The notes beneath the pieces are model-generated. The model was not told where the DNA came from and did no database searches. It saw only the letters and a list, made by a program, of their open reading frames with translations. A program made the position numbers and the translations under genes. 39,511 nt of DNA from NCBI GenBank assembly GCA_031282385.1, contig JAITDV010000010.1, positions 1 through 39,511 on the forward strand, given 5' to 3'. The DNA is from Planctomycetaceae bacterium. GTDB taxonomy: Bacteria; Planctomycetota; Planctomycetia; Pirellulales; Thermoguttaceae. How positions within the stretch are numbered: position 1 is the stretch's first letter; the number at the start of each line of letters is the position of its first letter. Below are positions 821 to 38,736 of the stretch, one piece after another.

Positions 821-924
821 ACTGATCGTACAATAATAAATTGCGTACCTCAAGATTGTGGAGACTTTGATTTCCGATAGATAAGCAGGCGACGTTAAAG
901 GAAATTTAAAGTTTGGACAATTTA
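821..924 (+). repeat. Family A element, copy A1 (diverged)
   Basis: actgatcgtacaataataaattgcgtacctcaagattgt...tttccgatagataagcaggcgacgttaaaggaaatttaaagtttggacaattta matches the family A layout. Confidence 0.75.
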
Positions 925-1123: not shown

Positions 1124-2665
1124 ATGCCAAGATTAAATTATTATATTATTATAATTTCGTTATTGCTTTATTTTTTTTGTTCGTCGATTACGATTCGAGA
1201 TCGGATATTGATAAACACGTTTCATCTTATTGAGCAACATTCGCTTTCGCCTCCGGCTTCACGACAACTTTTTGAAGGCGCAATGAGCGGTATGTTTAAG
1301 ACGCTTGACAAATATTCGTACTACACTCCTGCGTCCGGTAAAAAAGATTACAACGATCACCTTGATAATAACTATGAAGGAGTCGGTTTGGTAACTACGC
1401 CTGCAAAGGATAAAAAATCAATCGAAACAATTTATCCGCTTATTGATTCTCCGGCGTTTCGTGCGGGTCTACGTTCAGGTGATCGGATATTGGCGATTAA
1501 TGGAGTTGATTTGACGGAAGGTCAAATTGAGAATTTCTCGTCAATGATCAGAAACTTAAATAACACCGATATTGTTCTTACGGTTTTACCATTTGGTAAA
1601 ACCGATACGAGCCAAATTACAATTAGAACGGCTCCGTTAAACATGGATAGTGTTGAAGGTGACAGTATTGATATTGATGGCACACGTAATTTTATACTTG
1701 AGAGTGACAACACAATCGGTTACATACGAATAACCTCTTTCAGCCGCCGTACCGCCGATGAGTTTAGCGACGCATTGCGCCAACTCTATAAAAAACAAGC
1801 ACAAAATCTGATTCTTGACTTGCGCGGTAATCCGGGCGGTTATGTTAAAGTGTCTGTTGAAATTGCAATGATGTTGTTGGATTTAACCGATAGCTCAAAA
1901 ATTATCGTATCAACAAAATCACGCAACGGAACTATAAAAACAAAATATTACGGCACCGAAAAAAGTCAGATTTGTTCTTTACCGATAGTTGTGTTGATCG
2001 ATAATAATACAGCAAGTGCATCAGAAATACTTGCGGCGGCATTGCAAGATTATAAACGTGCCGTTATTGTAGGTACTCGTTCATTTGGCAAAGGTGTTGT
2101 GCAGGAGATCTATGATTTGCCCGCAAATTCAGGAACGTATCAATTGACCGGCGTGAGTTATTGGCGGCCGAGTAATAAGAATATTAATCGTACGGAAAAT
2201 GCCAACTACTCCGACGAATGGGGCGTGATTCCTGATGTTGGATGTAAAATGGAATTGCAAAAATGGCGAAGCCGTGCAATAGATTCTATTCGCAGCAGAC
2301 GTGCAAATGTAGTTGGAGAGAACCGCGAACTTTATTTAGAATCATATATCGCAACAATTGAACAGGAAGTTGAAGAATCAAGAAACGAGCTTAAAAAATT
2401 AAATAAAGACAATAATCCAGATAAAAATACTACTTCGCCGTCCGATAATAAAACCATTGAAAAATCCGGCGACAATAATACAACTGAAATCAATAAAACT
2501 TCTAATAATGAAAACGAAAACAATATTGAAATTGACTTTGATGAAGATGATAACAAAGATATTGATATACCATTCAAGCTGCAAGGTAATCCGCCATATT
2601 TTGACCCGCAACTCGATAAGGCTATAGATATTCTCAAACAAGGAATCCAATTCAACAAGCCGTAA
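1124..2665 (+). CDS. S41 family (C-terminal processing) peptidase with PDZ domain and an Asn/Asp-rich C-terminal tail
   Basis: Hydrophobic N-terminus; PDZ-like YEGVGLV...IYPLIDSPAFRAGLRSGDRILAINGVDL; catalytic region LDLRGNPGG ... DNNTASASEILAAALQDYKRAVIVGTRSFGKGVVQ (Ser/Lys) typical of CtpA/S41. Confidence 0.93.
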   Translation: MPRLNYYIIIISLLLYFFCSSITIRDRILINTFHLIEQHSLSPPASRQLFEGAMSGMFKTLDKYSYYTPASGKKDYNDHLDNNYEGVGLVTTPAKDKKSIETIYPLIDSPAFRAGLRSGDRILAINGVDLTEGQIENFSSMIRNLNNTDIVLTVLPFGKTDTSQITIRTAPLNMDSVEGDSIDIDGTRNFILESDNTIGYIRITSFSRRTADEFSDALRQLYKKQAQNLILDLRGNPGGYVKVSVEIAMMLLDLTDSSKIIVSTKSRNGTIKTKYYGTEKSQICSLPIVVLIDNNTASASEILAAALQDYKRAVIVGTRSFGKGVVQEIYDLPANSGTYQLTGVSYWRPSNKNINRTENANYSDEWGVIPDVGCKMELQKWRSRAIDSIRSRRANVVGENRELYLESYIATIEQEVEESRNELKKLNKDNNPDKNTTSPSDNKTIEKSGDNNTTEINKTSNNENENNIEIDFDEDDNKDIDIPFKLQGNPPYFDPQLDKAIDILKQGIQFNKP

Positions 2666-2666
2666 T

Positions 2667-2762
2667 AAACTGTTCACACTTTAAACTGTTCACACTTTAA
2701 ACTGTTCACACTTTAAACTGTTCACACTTTAAACTGTTCATGCTTTAAATTATTCATACTTT
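2667..2762. repeat. Six tandem 16-bp units (aaactgttcacacttt) derived from the family A terminal repeat
   Basis: Read directly: four identical units at 2667-2730, then aaactgttcatgcttt (2731-2746) and aaattattcatacttt (2747-2762). Confidence 0.97.
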
Positions 2763-2800
2763 AATTTCTTTTGGGTCATGTGATTTATTGTACGAACATT
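2667..2800 (-). repeat. Family A element, copy A2: amplified right terminus, hairpin core missing, left terminus retained
   Basis: The tandem units are followed by aatttcttttgggtcatgtgatttattgtacgaacat, matching the reverse-oriented left arm of other copies (ttgagtcatgcaatttatagtacgaacagt). Confidence 0.75.
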
Positions 2801-2816
2801 ATATTATTTTATTTTT

Positions 2817-3734
2817 GTGCATATTTTTCTTGCTAATCCTCGTGGTTTTTGTATTGGCGTTAATATGGCGATCAAAACGCTTGAAGCGGCGATTACGCGA
2901 TTTGGGTTGCCGCTTTATGTTTACCATGAGATTGTTCATAACAGGTGGGTTGTTGACAATTTTAAGTCAAGAGGCGTGAAATTTGTCAGTACAATTGATG
3001 AAGTGCCTGAAGATGCGAGGTTAATGTTTTCAGCGCATGGAGTCGCTCCAGATATTCGTATCAAGGCAAGTCAAAAAAATATTGAAACGATAGATGCAAC
3101 TTGTCCGCTTGTTGCTCGTGTACATCGTGAAGTGTTGCGTTATGCGGCGAACAAGTACACTATCATTTTGATTGGACACAACGGACACGATGAAGTTATC
3201 GGAACAATGAATGAAGCTCCAGAGTCAATAATTCTCGTTGAACACGAATCAGATATTCACAACCTTTGTCTAAATCCGAATGATAAACTTGTCGTACTTA
3301 CGCAAACAACACTTTCTGTAACAGAAACTCAATCGATGATAGAATTATTGAAACAAAAATTTCCTAACATTATCAGCGGATCCAACGCCAACATTTGTTA
3401 CGCAACACAACATCGTCAAGAAGCGATTGCAATGTTGGCGCCGTTAGTTGATATTATTTTAATTGTAGGCAGTGGAAATAGTTCAAATAGTAAACGTCTG
3501 GCAGAACGCGGTGAAGCTTTGGGAGTTCGATCAATTTTAATTGACGGTGCAGACAATATTAACGTCGGTTGGTTTAACGGAAATGAAAAAATTCTGATTT
3601 CTGCAGGGGCAAGTGCGCCGGAATATGTTGTACAAGATTGCGTAAAAATGCTGCAAAAAAATTTTAACGCAACTGTAGAAGAACGACAAACAAGTACAGA
3701 TTCTCTTTCATTTCAACTACCAATTGTTGATTGA
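2817..3734 (+). CDS. ispH: 4-hydroxy-3-methylbut-2-enyl diphosphate reductase
   Basis: GTG start; LANPRGFCIGVNMAIKTLE, YVYHEIVHNRWVV, FSAHGVAP, IDATCPLVARVHREV, NICYATQHRQEA, VGSGNSSNSKRL; matches IspH architecture including the conserved Cys residues. Confidence 0.95.
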   Translation: MHIFLANPRGFCIGVNMAIKTLEAAITRFGLPLYVYHEIVHNRWVVDNFKSRGVKFVSTIDEVPEDARLMFSAHGVAPDIRIKASQKNIETIDATCPLVARVHREVLRYAANKYTIILIGHNGHDEVIGTMNEAPESIILVEHESDIHNLCLNPNDKLVVLTQTTLSVTETQSMIELLKQKFPNIISGSNANICYATQHRQEAIAMLAPLVDIILIVGSGNSSNSKRLAERGEALGVRSILIDGADNINVGWFNGNEKILISAGASAPEYVVQDCVKMLQKNFNATVEERQTSTDSLSFQLPIVD

Positions 3735-7187: not shown

Positions 7188-7284
7188 ACTGTTCGTACTA
7201 TAAATTGTACGGCTCAAGAGCGTAAACGCTTGCTTTCCGATAAGTAAGCAGACGGCGGTGAAGGTAATTTAAAGTGTGAACAGT
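7188..7284 (+). repeat. Family A element, copy A3
   Basis: actgttcgtactataaattgtacggctcaagagcgtaaacgcttgctttccgataagtaagcagacggcggtgaaggtaatttaaagtgtgaacagt; both termini intact. Confidence 0.92.
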
Positions 7285-7360
7285 AGACCTTATTCTCTAA
7301 CCCAAAAATACATCAACGCAACAAAAAAACTACAACAAAAAACCGCCTTTAACTCCTCCA

Positions 7361-7403
7361 AGACCGCCCCTAACCCCTCCGATGGAGGGGTTAGGGGCGG
7401 TCT
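7361..7403. repeat. Perfect 20-bp inverted repeat with 3-nt loop (AGACCGCCCCTAACCCCTCC-GAT-GGAGGGGTTAGGGGCGGTCT)
   Basis: Direct reading; a degenerate direct copy of one arm (accgcctttaactcctcc) lies just before it, and a diverged relative occurs at 36311-36382. Confidence 0.9.
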
Positions 7404-7701: not shown

Positions 7702-7796
7702 CACGTTCAAACTTTAAATTTCCTTCACCGCCGTCTGTTTACCTATCGGAAGCAGGCTTTTACGCTCTTGAGTCATGAAATTTATGGTACGAAATA
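7702..7796 (-). repeat. Family A element, copy A4
   Basis: acgttcaaactttaaatttccttcaccgccgtctgtttacctatcggaagcaggcttttacgctcttgagtcatgaaatttatggtacgaaat. Confidence 0.9.
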
Positions 7797-9413: not shown

Positions 9414-9514
9414 ACTGTTTGTACTATAAATTGCATGATTCAAGATCGTAAAAGCCTGCTTTCAAATAGGTAAGCTGGCGGCGGCAAAGGAAATTTAAAG
9501 TGTGAACAGTTTAA
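9414..9514 (+). repeat. Family A element, copy A5
   Basis: actgtttgtactataaattgcatgattcaagatcgtaaaagcctgctttcaaataggtaagctggcggcggcaaaggaaatttaaagtgtgaacagttta. Confidence 0.93.
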
Positions 9515-9560
9515 AACAATTTTGAAAATACTTTGGATATTAAATTATTTACGTAATATT

Positions 9561-11360
9561 ATGAGAACCAGACAAATAATTATTGTAACAATAATCTTAA
9601 CAGCAATCTGTTTTGTTATTTTGCGCCCTGTTATATTATCAGCACAAGACAGTTTCGGCGCAACAAAAATATCTCCGCTTTTTATGCAGCCGGAAATATT
9701 GCAACAAAATTACCAGACATTAGATCAACTTTCATCAAATTCACCATTTGATCAATCTGTCAATCAACCCGTAACAAATCAACCGATTAACCCAATTCCG
9801 AATCAACCTTTTCCAAATTTACCGTTTGATCAATCTGTTAATCAACCTGTACCCGATCAGCCTTTTAATCATATTTCGAATCAATCTTTATCAAATTCAT
9901 TATTTGATCCATTTGTCAATCAATATTTGACGTATGATCCGTTTGATCGTTCAACAAATGAGTTGTTACCAACTCAAGTTTCGCAGCGAACTGAAATTAT
10001 TGATCAACCGGCGGTTAGTAGTGAAGTTCCATTATCATTTTCGCCAATTCATCGTAAGGTAACGGGACCGATAATTTATGATACTGCGGAAGGTGAAGAA
10101 TTAGTTACCAGTGGTGGTTGTAGTCCTGTTTGTGCGCCGGGTTGCGGTTCTTCGTGTGATGTTTCGGCGGTTGAAGGTGTTGGTCTTGAGGGTGTTGGTT
10201 GTTGTGGTGATGAGATTGTGTGTGTACCGGCTTGGTATTCGCGGGTGAAGTTTTATGGTTGGCTGCAAGGCGGTCTTTATGCGAATTCTCATGGCAGTAC
10301 GACGGAGCGTTATCACGGAATAAATAGGCGCGGACAACATGATTTACTTCAAAGACCGACAGGCGGTAATGGTGCGTCGCTTGGTAATGTTCGTCAAACG
10401 GGTGCGGTTTTGAATCAACTTTGGTTGGGATTAAGCCGGGAGTTGGATTTATGCGGAGGTTTTGATTGGGGATTTCGAGGTGAGTTTTTATTTGGAACGG
10501 ATGCGCGGTTGACGCAGAGTTATGGTGACGCAACATTTGATTATTTGACGATGCGGCGTGATTATGGATTTTCAATTCCGCAATTGTATGTTACGTTGGG
10601 TTACAGGTGTTTATCGGTCAAGGTTGGCAAGTTTGAGTCGTTGCTTGGTTTTGAGCATATTCAAGCGGTGGATTCGCCGTTTTATAGTCATTCGAATTTA
10701 TTTTATGCGGAGCCGCAATCGCATAGCGGAGTGCTTTTTGATTGCAATGTGAATCCTGATTTTTGGTTTAGTATGGGTTATGTGCAAGGTGCTGATTCAA
10801 CTTTATCAAATAGATTTGGAGACAACGGTCTTATTGGCGGGATTTATTGGCGTTGTTGTCCTTCGATGACACTTTGGTACACGATTTATTATTCAAAAAA
10901 TGCTGCGGGCATGTTTGCAAATGGCGAACCTCATGCGGGAGGTGATTTATTCCGGCATACATTTGTTTTAAATTGGAAGTTGACGTCGCGGTTTGATTAT
11001 GCGTTTCAATGGGACGTCGGCAACCGTAGAGGCAGAAGAGCGGGAGATGACAATTCTTCATATTTTGGTTGGGCGCAATATTTCACTTACAAGATACATC
11101 CGCGGTTAAACGGGGGCATCAGAATTGATCAGTTGCATTCGAATAAGCTCATGGCAACATCCGGTTTCGCGCGTCCGAATACAGGTAATTTTATCGGTAA
11201 TTTGTACGGTATTACAATTGGTATTGAGTGGAAGCCGTATCAAAATTTCAGTTTCAAGCCGGAATTACGTTACGATTATTCAGACACAAGAGGTACGTTC
11301 GGCAACGGCAAACACAGAGATCAGATTTCATTTGGATTTGGAATTGTGTATGATTTCTAA
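9561..11360 (+). CDS. Beta-barrel porin of the OmpL-like/BBP2 type, paralogue 2, with Asn/Gln/Pro-rich N-terminal repeats and a Cys-rich linker
   Basis: ATG 9561 gives MRTRQIIIVTIILTAICFVIL signal-like start; FYGWLQGGLYANSHGSTTERYHG aligns with GWIQGGFFANSHGTTTKRN of paralogue 1; C-terminus ...SFGFGIVYDF. Confidence 0.87.
   Translation: MRTRQIIIVTIILTAICFVILRPVILSAQDSFGATKISPLFMQPEILQQNYQTLDQLSSNSPFDQSVNQPVTNQPINPIPNQPFPNLPFDQSVNQPVPDQPFNHISNQSLSNSLFDPFVNQYLTYDPFDRSTNELLPTQVSQRTEIIDQPAVSSEVPLSFSPIHRKVTGPIIYDTAEGEELVTSGGCSPVCAPGCGSSCDVSAVEGVGLEGVGCCGDEIVCVPAWYSRVKFYGWLQGGLYANSHGSTTERYHGINRRGQHDLLQRPTGGNGASLGNVRQTGAVLNQLWLGLSRELDLCGGFDWGFRGEFLFGTDARLTQSYGDATFDYLTMRRDYGFSIPQLYVTLGYRCLSVKVGKFESLLGFEHIQAVDSPFYSHSNLFYAEPQSHSGVLFDCNVNPDFWFSMGYVQGADSTLSNRFGDNGLIGGIYWRCCPSMTLWYTIYYSKNAAGMFANGEPHAGGDLFRHTFVLNWKLTSRFDYAFQWDVGNRRGRRAGDDNSSYFGWAQYFTYKIHPRLNGGIRIDQLHSNKLMATSGFARPNTGNFIGNLYGITIGIEWKPYQNFSFKPELRYDYSDTRGTFGNGKHRDQISFGFGIVYDF
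9741..9971 (+). repeat. In-frame degenerate repeat (about 27-aa period) encoding PFDQSVNQPVxxQP...
   Basis: SPFDQSVNQPVTNQPINPIPNQPFPN / LPFDQSVNQPVPDQPFNHISNQSLSNS / LFDPFVNQYLTYDPFDRSTNE. Confidence 0.8.
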
Positions 11361-11396: not shown

Positions 11397-11497
11397 ACTG
11401 TTCGTACTATAAATTGTATGATTCAAGAGTGTAAAAATCTGTTTTCCGATAAGTAAGCAGACGGAGGTAAAGGAAATTTAAAGTGCGAACAGTTTAA
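11397..11497 (+). repeat. Family A element, copy A6
   Basis: actgttcgtactataaattgtatgattcaagagtgtaaaaatctgttttccgataagtaagcagacggaggtaaaggaaatttaaagtgcgaacagtttaa. Confidence 0.94.
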
Positions 11498-15266: not shown

Positions 15267-15367
15267 ACTGTTCGTACTATAAATTGCATGACTCAAGAGC
15301 GTAAAAGCCTGCTTTACAATTAGGTAAACAGGCGAAGGTAAACGAAATTTAACGTGCGAACAGTTTA
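15267..15367 (+). repeat. Family A element, copy A8
   Basis: actgttcgtactataaattgcatgactcaagagcgtaaaagcctgctttacaattaggtaaacaggcgaaggtaaacgaaatttaacgtgcgaacagttta. Confidence 0.94.
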
Positions 15368-19753: not shown

Positions 19754-22594
19754 ATGAGTATTTTTGATGTTGATACGATGCGGGAAGTTTTGCTTGCACC
19801 TTTGCTCAAGAACCTTGATAAATTTGAACGCGAAGTTCATGAATTGCGGGCAAGCATAAAAAAAGGATTCGTAAACAAACGCTGCGAATTACTGGACAAA
19901 CTCTGCGACATCCTATTTCTAAAATCTAACATTCAACAATTTGACGAAGCAAAAGAAATAATAGCCGAAATAGTTGAAATTGGTAAATCTCTTGCCGCTG
20001 ACGGCAGCACTGAAGATTTAGAAATGTGCGGAATTAAAATAGGTAAAAACATCAGTATGGCCTGGCTGTTCCCCATTATGACCAATGTCGATTACGATAA
20101 AATAGAAGAAATGTTCGACCTCTACGATCAATGGATGAAATTATTGCCTGAAAACGAAATTAATAAAACAGACAACGACTTGATCTACGATAATTACCGT
20201 TTCTCCGACTACTTGCTAAAAAAAGGCAAAAAAGAGCAAGCTCTTAAATTGACAATTGAAACTCTCAACACATTTGAAACAAAATATTATCCGACATCAA
20301 CCAAAGTAGCAGATTGGCAACCTCTCACAGTCGGTTATAACACACTTGCCAAAATATATGAAGAACTCGGCGACAATGAAAACGCATTGCAGAACTATTT
20401 GAAATACGACGAAATCGCGGATAAAGTACACGACATGATGGTATGGAACAAGACCGATAATACAGTACAAATTGAAGACATTAACAAAAACGTTGAAGAA
20501 ATTAATAAAATCTTTAAAGGTGTAATAATCATCAATGCAAGTTCCGATCTAAGTGGTTTTTCATTAAACGACGTCGATTTCGATGAAGAACGTAACACGG
20601 TAATGTTACGACTCGGAGATATTTACGCCCAAAAATCCAACATTGATGAAGCATTGAAATATTACAATAAAGCGGCACGCACGGCAAAATTAGCAATTGA
20701 TAACGCCGTCTCATCCTCCCACGAATCAGTACCGGAAATACAATTCTCAAAGATTTATATTGCAATCAGAAAAATACGGTTGTACATGAAAATCAACGAT
20801 TGGGAAAACGCACGAAAACAAATTCAAAACGCTGCCAAAGAATTTAATTTCAAATCACAAAAACACGACTCATTAGGTTACACCGAAAAAGAAGTAATGG
20901 ATTCGTTGTATGACGAAATTAAAAATCTGCAACAAGAACTCGAAAAAATAACAAATAACAAAACAAATATTTTCTTTGAAAAAGAAAATGTATTTGGAAA
21001 AAAACAATCCGGTGCCGAAGATAGATTCGGGATTTTCAGCGGCAATATTAAATGGAATGAATTGCGGCTAACACTTGGCGAAAAGCATAATGAAGCTTGC
21101 AAGTTACTTGGACGCGGTCACTTTGAATTGAGTCGCGGACGTTTTAAGTCGGCAATTGTTTATTTATTACAAGCGCGAAATGTCTTGGATTCATTGTTTA
21201 TCAGTTTGGAGTTGGTTTCTTCTCGTGCAAATGTTGCTATGATTTATTCCATGCTTGGTCGGGCGTATCTGAAATTGCACGATTTTGCGAAGGCGGAAAA
21301 ATGGTCAAATAAAGCAGTAGAAGAAGTAGATTCCATTATCAAGAAAACCAACGAACTTGCAAATAAATCTCACAGAGATGCACGTGAACAATTCGAATAT
21401 AAATTGCTTATGCCAGTTGACTGCGGAACGACATTGTTGCTAACCTTGGAAACTGCTGCAAGTTTGTACATTTCGACAAATCGCTTTGATAATGCAATTA
21501 AAACGCTTACAAGATTACACGAAGTCAGTAAAGAATGGCATCAGAAACAACAATCCAGCAATACCAAACGAACAGCTAAAGAGTTACGAAGTCGTTACAA
21601 TTGGTGCGTAACAGCTATGACCACAATAGACGTTATTCGCGGAATAGAGGAATGTTGTTGTCATCTCGGTCGGTTTGATGAAGCAATTAAATGGGTAACT
21701 ACTGAGGTAAATGAATATTATGAGTTGTGTTATTTTTTGTCCGCAAACGATAATAAAATCTCCACAACATTCCGCAGCATGGCGGATTTTTCAACCGCGG
21801 CATTGCTCGTATGCACCAAACAATTCGGTCAAGCAGACGCAATGATACAAAAAATCGCACAACGATTTGTAAAAAACAAAATCGAAGACAAAATTGAGTC
21901 TGCATTGGACAGAGTGGAGTTATTTGTTGCCTTGCGGCGTTGCATGTTAATGTCGGAAATTGAATTTTCGGAAGAGCGCAACAAACTGATCGAAGCACGA
22001 AAGCTTATGCTGCATCAACGCGGCAAGGCAATTGAATTGTTCAATGAAGTTCTTGGCAAATTAGAAGAGAAACGCAAAAAAGCAGAAAATTCACACAACG
22101 TAATACGTAAACAATGGGACTTGTTAATCAAATATACACGTACAGCATTGAATTGGAGTAACGGCAACACAAAAGATTGGGATGCGTTATTGACCAAAAG
22201 AGAAAAAATGACCAACCGTTTGTCGTTGCTGGAATCTGATGATAAAGAATTTGATTTGGAGTTGGTTTTGTCAAGGCAATACGACGGCAATATCGAATTT
22301 GACAAAGTAGCAGAATGGGAACCGGACAATATTGATGATGAAATTGCAAAACATGATCTTGATTTTGAAGGACCGTTTGATAATCCGGTTGCGCCTGAAT
22401 ACGACATTCTAAAAGAAGGCACAAGTGCAGAAAGACACGAAGCGATAGAATCATTCCGTAAAATAATGACTTCACAAGATATTAGAGAGGGAGTAGAGAG
22501 ATTGCAAAATAAACATACAGTTGGGCGCAATGATCCTTGTCCGTGCGGCAGCGGAAAAAAATATAAAAAATGCTGTATGAACAAAGACACATAA
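19754..22594 (+). CDS. TPR-repeat protein with C-terminal SEC-C zinc motif
   Basis: Multiple TPR-like units; C-terminus VGRNDPCPCGSGKKYKKCCMNKDT is a canonical SEC-C motif. Confidence 0.92.
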   Translation: MSIFDVDTMREVLLAPLLKNLDKFEREVHELRASIKKGFVNKRCELLDKLCDILFLKSNIQQFDEAKEIIAEIVEIGKSLAADGSTEDLEMCGIKIGKNISMAWLFPIMTNVDYDKIEEMFDLYDQWMKLLPENEINKTDNDLIYDNYRFSDYLLKKGKKEQALKLTIETLNTFETKYYPTSTKVADWQPLTVGYNTLAKIYEELGDNENALQNYLKYDEIADKVHDMMVWNKTDNTVQIEDINKNVEEINKIFKGVIIINASSDLSGFSLNDVDFDEERNTVMLRLGDIYAQKSNIDEALKYYNKAARTAKLAIDNAVSSSHESVPEIQFSKIYIAIRKIRLYMKINDWENARKQIQNAAKEFNFKSQKHDSLGYTEKEVMDSLYDEIKNLQQELEKITNNKTNIFFEKENVFGKKQSGAEDRFGIFSGNIKWNELRLTLGEKHNEACKLLGRGHFELSRGRFKSAIVYLLQARNVLDSLFISLELVSSRANVAMIYSMLGRAYLKLHDFAKAEKWSNKAVEEVDSIIKKTNELANKSHRDAREQFEYKLLMPVDCGTTLLLTLETAASLYISTNRFDNAIKTLTRLHEVSKEWHQKQQSSNTKRTAKELRSRYNWCVTAMTTIDVIRGIEECCCHLGRFDEAIKWVTTEVNEYYELCYFLSANDNKISTTFRSMADFSTAALLVCTKQFGQADAMIQKIAQRFVKNKIEDKIESALDRVELFVALRRCMLMSEIEFSEERNKLIEARKLMLHQRGKAIELFNEVLGKLEEKRKKAENSHNVIRKQWDLLIKYTRTALNWSNGNTKDWDALLTKREKMTNRLSLLESDDKEFDLELVLSRQYDGNIEFDKVAEWEPDNIDDEIAKHDLDFEGPFDNPVAPEYDILKEGTSAERHEAIESFRKIMTSQDIREGVERLQNKHTVGRNDPCPCGSGKKYKKCCMNKDT

Positions 22595-22690
22595 ACTGTT
22601 CATACTTGAATTTTCCTTTACCTCCGCCTGCTTACCTATCGGCAAGCAGGCTTTTATGTTATTGAGTTACACAAATTATTTAATTCGAGA
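22595..22690 (-). repeat. Family A element, copy A10 (best central hairpin, degenerate distal end)
   Basis: actgttcatacttgaattttcctttacctccgcctgcttacctatcggcaagcaggcttttatgttattgagttacacaaattattt; adjoins the stop codon at 22594. Confidence 0.88.
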
Positions 22691-26054: not shown

Positions 26055-26230
26055 CGTCAAAAACAGGTTTTTAGAAGTTGCCTTTGGAAAGTACAGCAAC
26101 TAATCATAGGTAACTATTTCTTTTGAGTTGATATTGTAAACGGTTTAAAATTCCCCCCCCTAGTGTCTGTAGATTACTTGTGCTATACTTCGTAACCTTA
26201 TTTATGTTGTTGGGAGTTGGAATTATTTTA

Positions 26231-26347
26231 AGCTGTTCACACTTATACCGCTCGTATGATAAATTGCGTGATTCAAGAACGTAAAAGTCTGCTTGCCAAT
26301 AGGTAAGTAAACGGCGGTAAAGGAAAATTCAAGTTTGAACAGATTAA
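26231..26347 (+). repeat. Family A element, copy A11, with an extra right-terminus copy fused ahead of its left end
   Basis: agctgttcacactta|taccgctcgtatgataaattgcgtgattcaagaacgtaaaagtctgcttgccaataggtaagtaaacggcggtaaaggaaaattcaagtttgaacagatta. Confidence 0.88.
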
Positions 26348-26490: not shown

Positions 26491-26592
26491 AAACAGTCCT
26501 CACTTAAAATTTCATTTATCCTCGCCTGTTTACCTACCGGAAAACAGGCTTTTACGTTCTTGAGTTACACAATGTTTTATAACACGATCAGT
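26491..26592 (-). repeat. Family A element, copy A12
   Basis: aaacagtcctcacttaaaatttcatttatcctcgcctgtttacctaccggaaaacaggcttttacgttcttgagttacacaatgttttataacacgatcagta. Confidence 0.85.
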
Positions 26593-30005: not shown

Positions 30006-30200
30006 GCGTGAGATTGAGATGGTGTTGCGACAGTAATTTTTGCGGCACTTTCAAAGGAATCTTGTTTTCAAGAGAATTGCCGCCTTTTCGGAGGTGAAAA
30101 ATTTATTATACTGTTAGTTGCTTTGCACCTATTGGAGTACGATTTTATTTTATTTTATTTCGGCAATTTTTTGTTTGCCGTATTATTTTAACCTTAATAA

Positions 30201-30304
30201 ACTGTTCTCACTTTAAATTTCATTTACCTTCGCCTGCTTACCTAATTGGAAATCAGGCTTTTACGTTTTTGAGACACGCAATTTATATTTATAGTACGAA
30301 CAGT
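30201..30304 (-). repeat. Family A element, copy A14
   Basis: actgttctcactttaaatttcatttaccttcgcctgcttacctaattggaaatcaggcttttacgtttttgagacacgcaatttatatttatagtacgaacagt. Confidence 0.92.
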
Positions 30305-33012: not shown

Positions 33013-33048
33013 ATAGCGGCGGTAAACGAAATTTAACGTGTGAACAAA
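33013..33048 (+). repeat. Family A right-half fragment
   Basis: atagcggcggtaaacgaaatttaacgtgtgaacaaa. Confidence 0.65.
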
Positions 33049-33058
33049 TTAAAAAAAT

Positions 33059-33240
33059 TGTATTTATTCAGTGGAATGTTTTTTTATCGTGAAATGCTTA
33101 AAATTATTTTGAGTTAAATTCGCGGCAATGGACTGAAAACCCAACATCACTAGCGTAATGTATCGCCCTACGCTAGTGATTCAAGGCTTTCAGCCTTAGT
33201 TCAAAAAACAACACAAAAAAATTTCCACTGAAATATTACA
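33059..33240. repeat. Family B inverted-repeat element, copy B2, carrying an extra internal hairpin
   Basis: tatttattcagtggaatgtttttttatcgtgaaatgcttaaa... matches B1; right end ttccactgaaatatta is inverted. Internal atcactagcgta/tacgctagtgat hairpin (33146-33180) is absent from B1. Confidence 0.85.
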
Positions 33241-38646: not shown

Positions 38647-38736
38647 ACTGCTTGTACTATAAATTGCGAGACTCAAGAGCGCAAAAAACCGGTAAGCAGG
38701 GCGAAGGTAAACGAAATTTAAAGTGTGAACAGTTTA
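38647..38736 (+). repeat. Family A element, copy A17 (shortened core)
   Basis: actgcttgtactataaattgcgagactcaagagcgcaaaaaaccggtaagcagggcgaaggtaaacgaaatttaaagtgtgaacagttta. Confidence 0.9.

Follow-up and report, generated by a model that had tools for sequence, protein, structure and literature searches.

Six tandem units of the left tip of a high-copy MITE between an S41 peptidase gene and ispH in a Pirellulales genome

A minisatellite carried by a bacterial MITE has been described for BrickBuilt of Porphyromonas gingivalis, which contains 1 to 22.8 head-to-tail 23-nt units without spacers (PMC4596501). The element described here resembles BrickBuilt in being a bacterial MITE with a minisatellite, an intergenic location and a limited host range (PMC4596501). 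In BrickBuilt, however, the repeat is internal and family-wide in 19 copies (PMC4596501), whereas here it is the terminus itself that is repeated, with six units at one of ~1,680 copies, and an internal tandem array is not typical of the family. In the Tetris foldback transposon of Drosophila virilis, tandem repeats inside the terminal inverted repeats seed satellite arrays; this system differs in being eukaryotic, with ~220-bp units, kb-scale arrays and a sequence unrelated to our element (PMC4079207). Correia and ERIC sequences are likewise short, non-coding and intergenic, with inverted-repeat ends and many copies (review PMC10969869). The element is set beside them by description, not by sequence, and its copy number of ~1,680 exceeds the values quoted in that review, namely 711 ERIC copies in Photorhabdus luminescens and >120 Correia copies (PMC10969869). 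With the MITEs derived from IS630/Tc1-mariner transposons it shares a 2-bp TA target-site duplication and short inverted repeats, TATA ends having been linked to IS630 (PMC4853749); it differs in that no IS630-type transposase with the element ends was found in its own genome or in the retrieved congener DDE_3 loci. REP/BIME sequences are also high-copy palindromic intergenic repeats, but they consist of a 20-40 bp palindrome, whereas the present element duplicates TA and its long inverted-repeat ends enclose an inner hairpin. Set against these systems the array is real but departs only modestly from mobile repeats already known.

The array lies on contig C265 of a 4.37-Mb assembly (Pirellulales, Planctomycetota; 669 contigs, ~85% complete), within the window, i.e. 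the whole stretch of 39,511 nucleotides that was analysed. The features of the locus are as follows.

1124-2665, forward strand: S41 peptidase gene with PDZ and Peptidase_S41 domains (ORF, Pfam)
2666-2667, no strand: left TA flank, target-site duplication side (profile of 265 left ends and nested insertions)
2667-2762, forward strand: tandem array of six 16-bp left-tip units, four exact (2667-2730), then two diverged (TRF, mismatch scan)
2763-2801, forward strand: degraded body and right end of the array copy (alignment to the element consensus)
2802-2803, no strand: right TA flank of the array copy (flank profile, consensus alignment)
2817-3734, forward strand: ispH/lytB gene (ORF, Pfam)

TRF called a repeat at 2666-2764 with a period of 16, 6.2 copies, 93% matches and no indels. 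All six units are in register: units 1-4 (2667-2682, 2683-2698, 2699-2714 and 2715-2730) each read exactly AAACTGTTCACACTTT, while unit 5 (2731-2746) carries two changes and unit 6 (2747-2762) three. With no more than 3 mismatches allowed, the 16-mer matched the window 20 times, as compared to a shuffle mean of 1.04, and no shuffle reached 20. The left TA at 2666-2667 directly follows the stop codon TAA (2663-2665) of the S41 gene, position 2667 being both a base of this flank and the first base of the 16-mer as the preliminary description had written the unit. That description, made from the letters of the window, had reported four identical units followed by two changed ones, and its coordinates proved exact in both the TRF call and the mismatch scan. 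Its statement that the unit is the terminus of a repeat family also holds, since the unit corresponds exactly to the left tip, positions 1-16, of a 99-bp consensus built from 66 aligned copies. Furthermore, the array stops where the interior of the element starts, as had been proposed: 2763-2803 aligns to the remainder of the element with a single internal deletion of ~45 bp, which includes the GCCTGCTT...AAGCAGGC hairpin (score 30.8; maximum of 2000 shuffles 21.2). Pfam confirmed the neighbouring genes as an S41 peptidase gene and ispH, and the array forms one end of a degraded element copy lying between them. Among the own-genome loci matched, only this copy exceeds two left-tip units. As to a putative variable-number tandem repeat (VNTR), which the preliminary description raised as possible copy-number variation, the comparison covered one genome per species.

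The consensus (66 copies; mode of the seed copies) reads AAACTGTTCACACTTTAAATTTCCTTTACCTCCGCCTGCTTACCTATCGGAAAGCAGGCTTTTACGCTCTTGAGTCACGCAATTTATAGTACGAACAGT, followed by ATA. Its terminal inverted repeats are imperfect (AACTGTTCACACTTTAAATT versus TACTGTTCGTACTATAAATT) and enclose an inner hairpin; folded as RNA, the consensus gave -27.7 kcal/mol (z = -4.4) with the terminal stem present. Including their flanks the ends read TA-AACTGTTC...GAACAGTA-TA. According to the profile of 265 left ends the flanks on that side are rich in T with T(A) as their last bases, while the right flanks show TA and then no preference; the preferred target is TTTTA. Further TA sites sit 14-16 bp inside each end. 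Nested copies provide known empty sites: one of them (L148), CAGGTTTTA-(element)-TACGCCC, sits at model position 62/63 of another copy, so that the consensus supplies the sequence before insertion. Therefore, insertion duplicates TA, and by structure the element is a MITE with a TA target-site duplication. This duplication, evident from flank profiles and nested sites, is shared with elements derived from IS630/Tc1-mariner and provides the only link to IS630; membership is not claimed. DDE_3 (PF13358) searches of the own genome (~85% complete as assembled) and of congeners, the only transposase family covered, yielded neither an autonomous partner nor an IS630-type transposase gene sharing the element ends: the loci were remnants or lacked the tips as ends, and in the own genome only broken remnants occurred. 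A terminator role was considered with regard to the inner hairpin followed by TTTT, which is terminator-like, and was rejected: copies are under-represented between convergent genes, and the array copy has lost this hairpin.

Copy numbers were derived from ~15% of the assembly (a sample of ~634 kb) and from pattern searches. The tip, exact or with one mismatch, occurs 916 times in the 4.37-Mb genome and its reversed control once. In 60 contigs picked regardless of matches (336 kb) 129 elements were found, corresponding to ~384 copies per Mb and, by extrapolation, to ~1,680 copies in the assembly or 3.5% of its bases. The element is non-coding; in the larger sample 249 of 255 copies lie outside ORFs, although ORFs make up 70% of the sequence. 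On the sampled contigs, 47 copies lie between divergent and 13 between convergent genes, the gaps of at least 100 bp of these kinds numbering 31 and 30, respectively. A first look at the genus gave 1,485 candidates in the own genome, 535 in G018, 295 in G020, 106 in G004, 49 in G009 and none in G003 and G006. Full-length copies from other species reach at best 83% identity to the own-genome consensus. Congener counts from zero to hundreds and this best identity suggest that the bursts are species-specific.

Besides the array copy, the window contains the following copies, all from the element search and where stated from a second source.

821-922, reverse strand: element copy
7188-7284, reverse strand: element copy
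7705-7793, forward strand: element copy with frayed ends
9414-9512, reverse strand: full-length copy, the reference copy of the window
11397-11495, reverse strand: full-length copy
15267-15366, reverse strand: full-length copy
22593-22679, forward strand: element copy without its right end, abutting the stop codon of a TPR/SEC-C gene (also ORFs)
26230-26345, reverse strand: copy whose right end bears an extra inverted left tip (26230-26245), a hybrid tip stack (also tip scan)
26491-26592, forward strand: element copy
30199-30304, forward strand: full-length copy
38647-38735, reverse strand: element copy

Other repeats are present as well. A second dispersed repeat of 92 bp (TATTTATTCAGTGGAATGTTTTTTTATCGTGAAATGCTTAAA...) occurs at 377-468 and 33047-33138 with 89% identity and, on a further contig (L263), lies beside a copy of the element. 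A G-rich repeat (GGAGGGGTTAGGGGCGGTCT-like) adjoins element ends at 7287-7400 and at L234, and a 78-bp tandem repeat with a 39-bp sub-unit occupies 9724-9957 within the ORF 9522-11360.

Stacked tips were observed elsewhere, too. Two-unit left-tip stacks with a period of 16 were found in the own genome on C404 and twice on C626 (weaker candidates include C495 and C299) and in the congener G018 on C375 and C506. Right-tip stacks occur at 12 places with a period of 14, and left tips fused to an inverted right end on C227, C290, C337, C362 and C661 as well as at 26230-26245 of the window. Intact nested copies with TA duplication at model position 62/63 are located at L148 6846-7042 and L086 3349-3548. 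At the right-tip TA, nested copies on C543 and C583 still retain a part of the outer copy, a long stretch in the former (its left part, on the far side of the insert) and a short piece in the latter. No intact nested insertion was detected at the left-tip TA (positions 15/16) in the ~634-kb sample. Tip stacking is thus general and recurrent, the array on C265 being its most extreme instance. Two-unit stacks amount to a few per cent or less of the remaining copies. We estimate that the nested or stacked share of a few per cent is about what random insertion would give with elements filling ~1/10 of the intergenic DNA, and special self-targeting is therefore unneeded.

Some further arrangements were noted. 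Two complete elements lie head to tail with one TA between them at L259 (G000 C521, 10294-10496). At L274 (C42) and L283 (C299) tip-like sequence extends beyond both ends, as if the element had inserted into a copy reduced to two tips; free-standing tip-pair mini-elements, which would explain both loci, did not occur in the sample. On C159 of G018 (L266) a nested element is accompanied by the 30-bp right-end unit AATCACTGAATTTCAAGTACGAACTGTATA, three times identical plus a diverged fourth, which follows the logic of self-insertion at another site.

The array is probably, though by no means certainly, the left end of a decayed copy of a high-copy, non-autonomous TA-target MITE, which arose by self-insertion, collapse and subsequent expansion and is most likely neutral. 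Initially, another copy would insert into a TA inside an existing copy, so that a second tip comes to lie beside the first and the newly inserted copy is flanked on both sides by tandem duplications; at this locus the step is deduced, at others it is directly visible. The longer duplication would then collapse by recombination, so that the short tip duplication remains as a two-unit stack. That the longer duplicate should collapse more readily and leave the shorter fits the 14-bp right and 16-bp left stacks. Finally, and on C265 only, the perfect 16-bp direct repeats could have expanded by replication slippage or unequal exchange to the four identical outer units, while the inner units and the body decayed and the hairpin was lost.

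The right-tip stacks are best explained by self-insertion rather than slippage, because their units are no more alike than the tips of unrelated copies: at the 12 places inner and outer units differ by a mean of 2.0 in 10 bp, as compared to 1.59 for random pairs screened alike (P of units as similar or more similar = 0.96). The case for self-insertion at the left tip is weaker and is drawn by analogy with the other sites. The three clear own-genome pairs, with 1, 1 and 5 differences, do not discriminate between the models. In favour of self-insertion, the outer left tips carry a C-to-T change making TTTTA in 3 of 5 clear cases (G000 and G018) against 5% of own-genome tips (P ~0.001, post hoc, the five cases mixing two species and the base rate being that of the own genome only). 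Within the C265 array divergence is highest in the innermost units. Simple self-insertion would instead predict the innermost tip to be the youngest, so that slippage or later decay must be invoked. This divergence speaks against repeated self-insertion as the sole cause, and five successive self-insertions with clean collapse would not be parsimonious. Exact tips account for 64 of 206, and four independent tips would all match the consensus with a chance of only ~0.009. The simplest last step on this contig is therefore that an initial stack expanded by slippage or unequal exchange. The more general idea that the TA sites 14-16 bp in from the ends make the element build its own minisatellites, by mutual tip insertion, collapse and seeded arrays that expand beside genes, is put forward tentatively.

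Slippage without any transposition is possible but rather unlikely. The TAAA (often TTTAAA) which each left end owes to the TA duplication and the T-rich target recurs 16 bp inward (CTTTAAATT), so that slipped-strand duplication could yield one additional tip with the observed 16-bp period and further rounds could expand it; this accounts for the four identical units on C265 and for the rare variant T6C common to both units of the C626 4265-4296 pair. However, it cannot produce inverted tip hybrids or the stacks on C543 and C583 which retain the remainder of the outer copy, the right-tip units are no more alike than random, and the four left stacks of the own genome share TAAA only and not the longer TTTAAA of most copies. 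The slippage suggested in the preliminary description thus has partial support. It would suit units 1-4, but stacks of tips recur across the genome, and the units of the right-tip stacks look unrelated, with nested insertion visible at two loci.

It is very improbable that a short-read assembler joined the tips of several copies into an array. With ~1,680 near-identical tips and a fragmented assembly of 669 contigs such a joint is conceivable, but two diverged units and a unique degraded body are bordered by unique genes, by our calculation the stretch of perfect periodicity (2666-2740, 75 bp) should give no k-mer loop at k of at least 60, and like stacks arise independently in a second species.

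Of the S41-ispH orthologues examined, the closest (G004, IspH 81% identical) has 6 bp between the S41 stop and the GTG of ispH, and no element; G009 and G020 have different spacers without the array. A comparison of the regions upstream of ispH showed no orthologous array in these three genomes or in relatives further removed. Given the 6-bp spacing of G004, the 151-bp gap of the present genome, nearly all of which is element and array, is most simply explained by an element having inserted into a short spacer. The IspH protein has named relatives, at 85% and 82%, in the Planctomycetaceae MAGs Gsp477_bin102 and Pcl387_bin71, which, as a guess from their names, come from termite guts. In G008 and G015 (L051, L052) unrelated tandem arrays of TACCACGAGACTTTCGTGGTG-type and TAAACCCCGCCGTTAACAAACTTGTACAATCGCGGGG-type units lie upstream of ispH; tandem repeats near ispH are therefore not peculiar to this species. 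Although the array lies directly upstream of ispH, where G004 has only those 6 bp, and tip strings could conceivably bind a transposase or regulator, a selected regulatory site for ispH (protein-binding repeats or a length switch) is hardly credible, as no sigma-70-like promoter or terminator was found in 2500-2900, the relatives lack such an array, the body of the array copy has decayed and the tip is transposon sequence present ~1,680 times elsewhere. An Rfam scan of the window returned no RNA family. The array most likely represents neutral selfish-DNA debris between the S41 gene and ispH.

The element thereby offers a concrete path, open to counting, by which a bacterial transposable element can give rise to a tandem repeat. 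Nested copies, stacks of two units, hybrid ends and an array of six can all be seen as intermediates within a single genome. It also suggests an unusually heavy MITE load in an uncultured genus of Planctomycetota, for which species-specific bursts are indicated.
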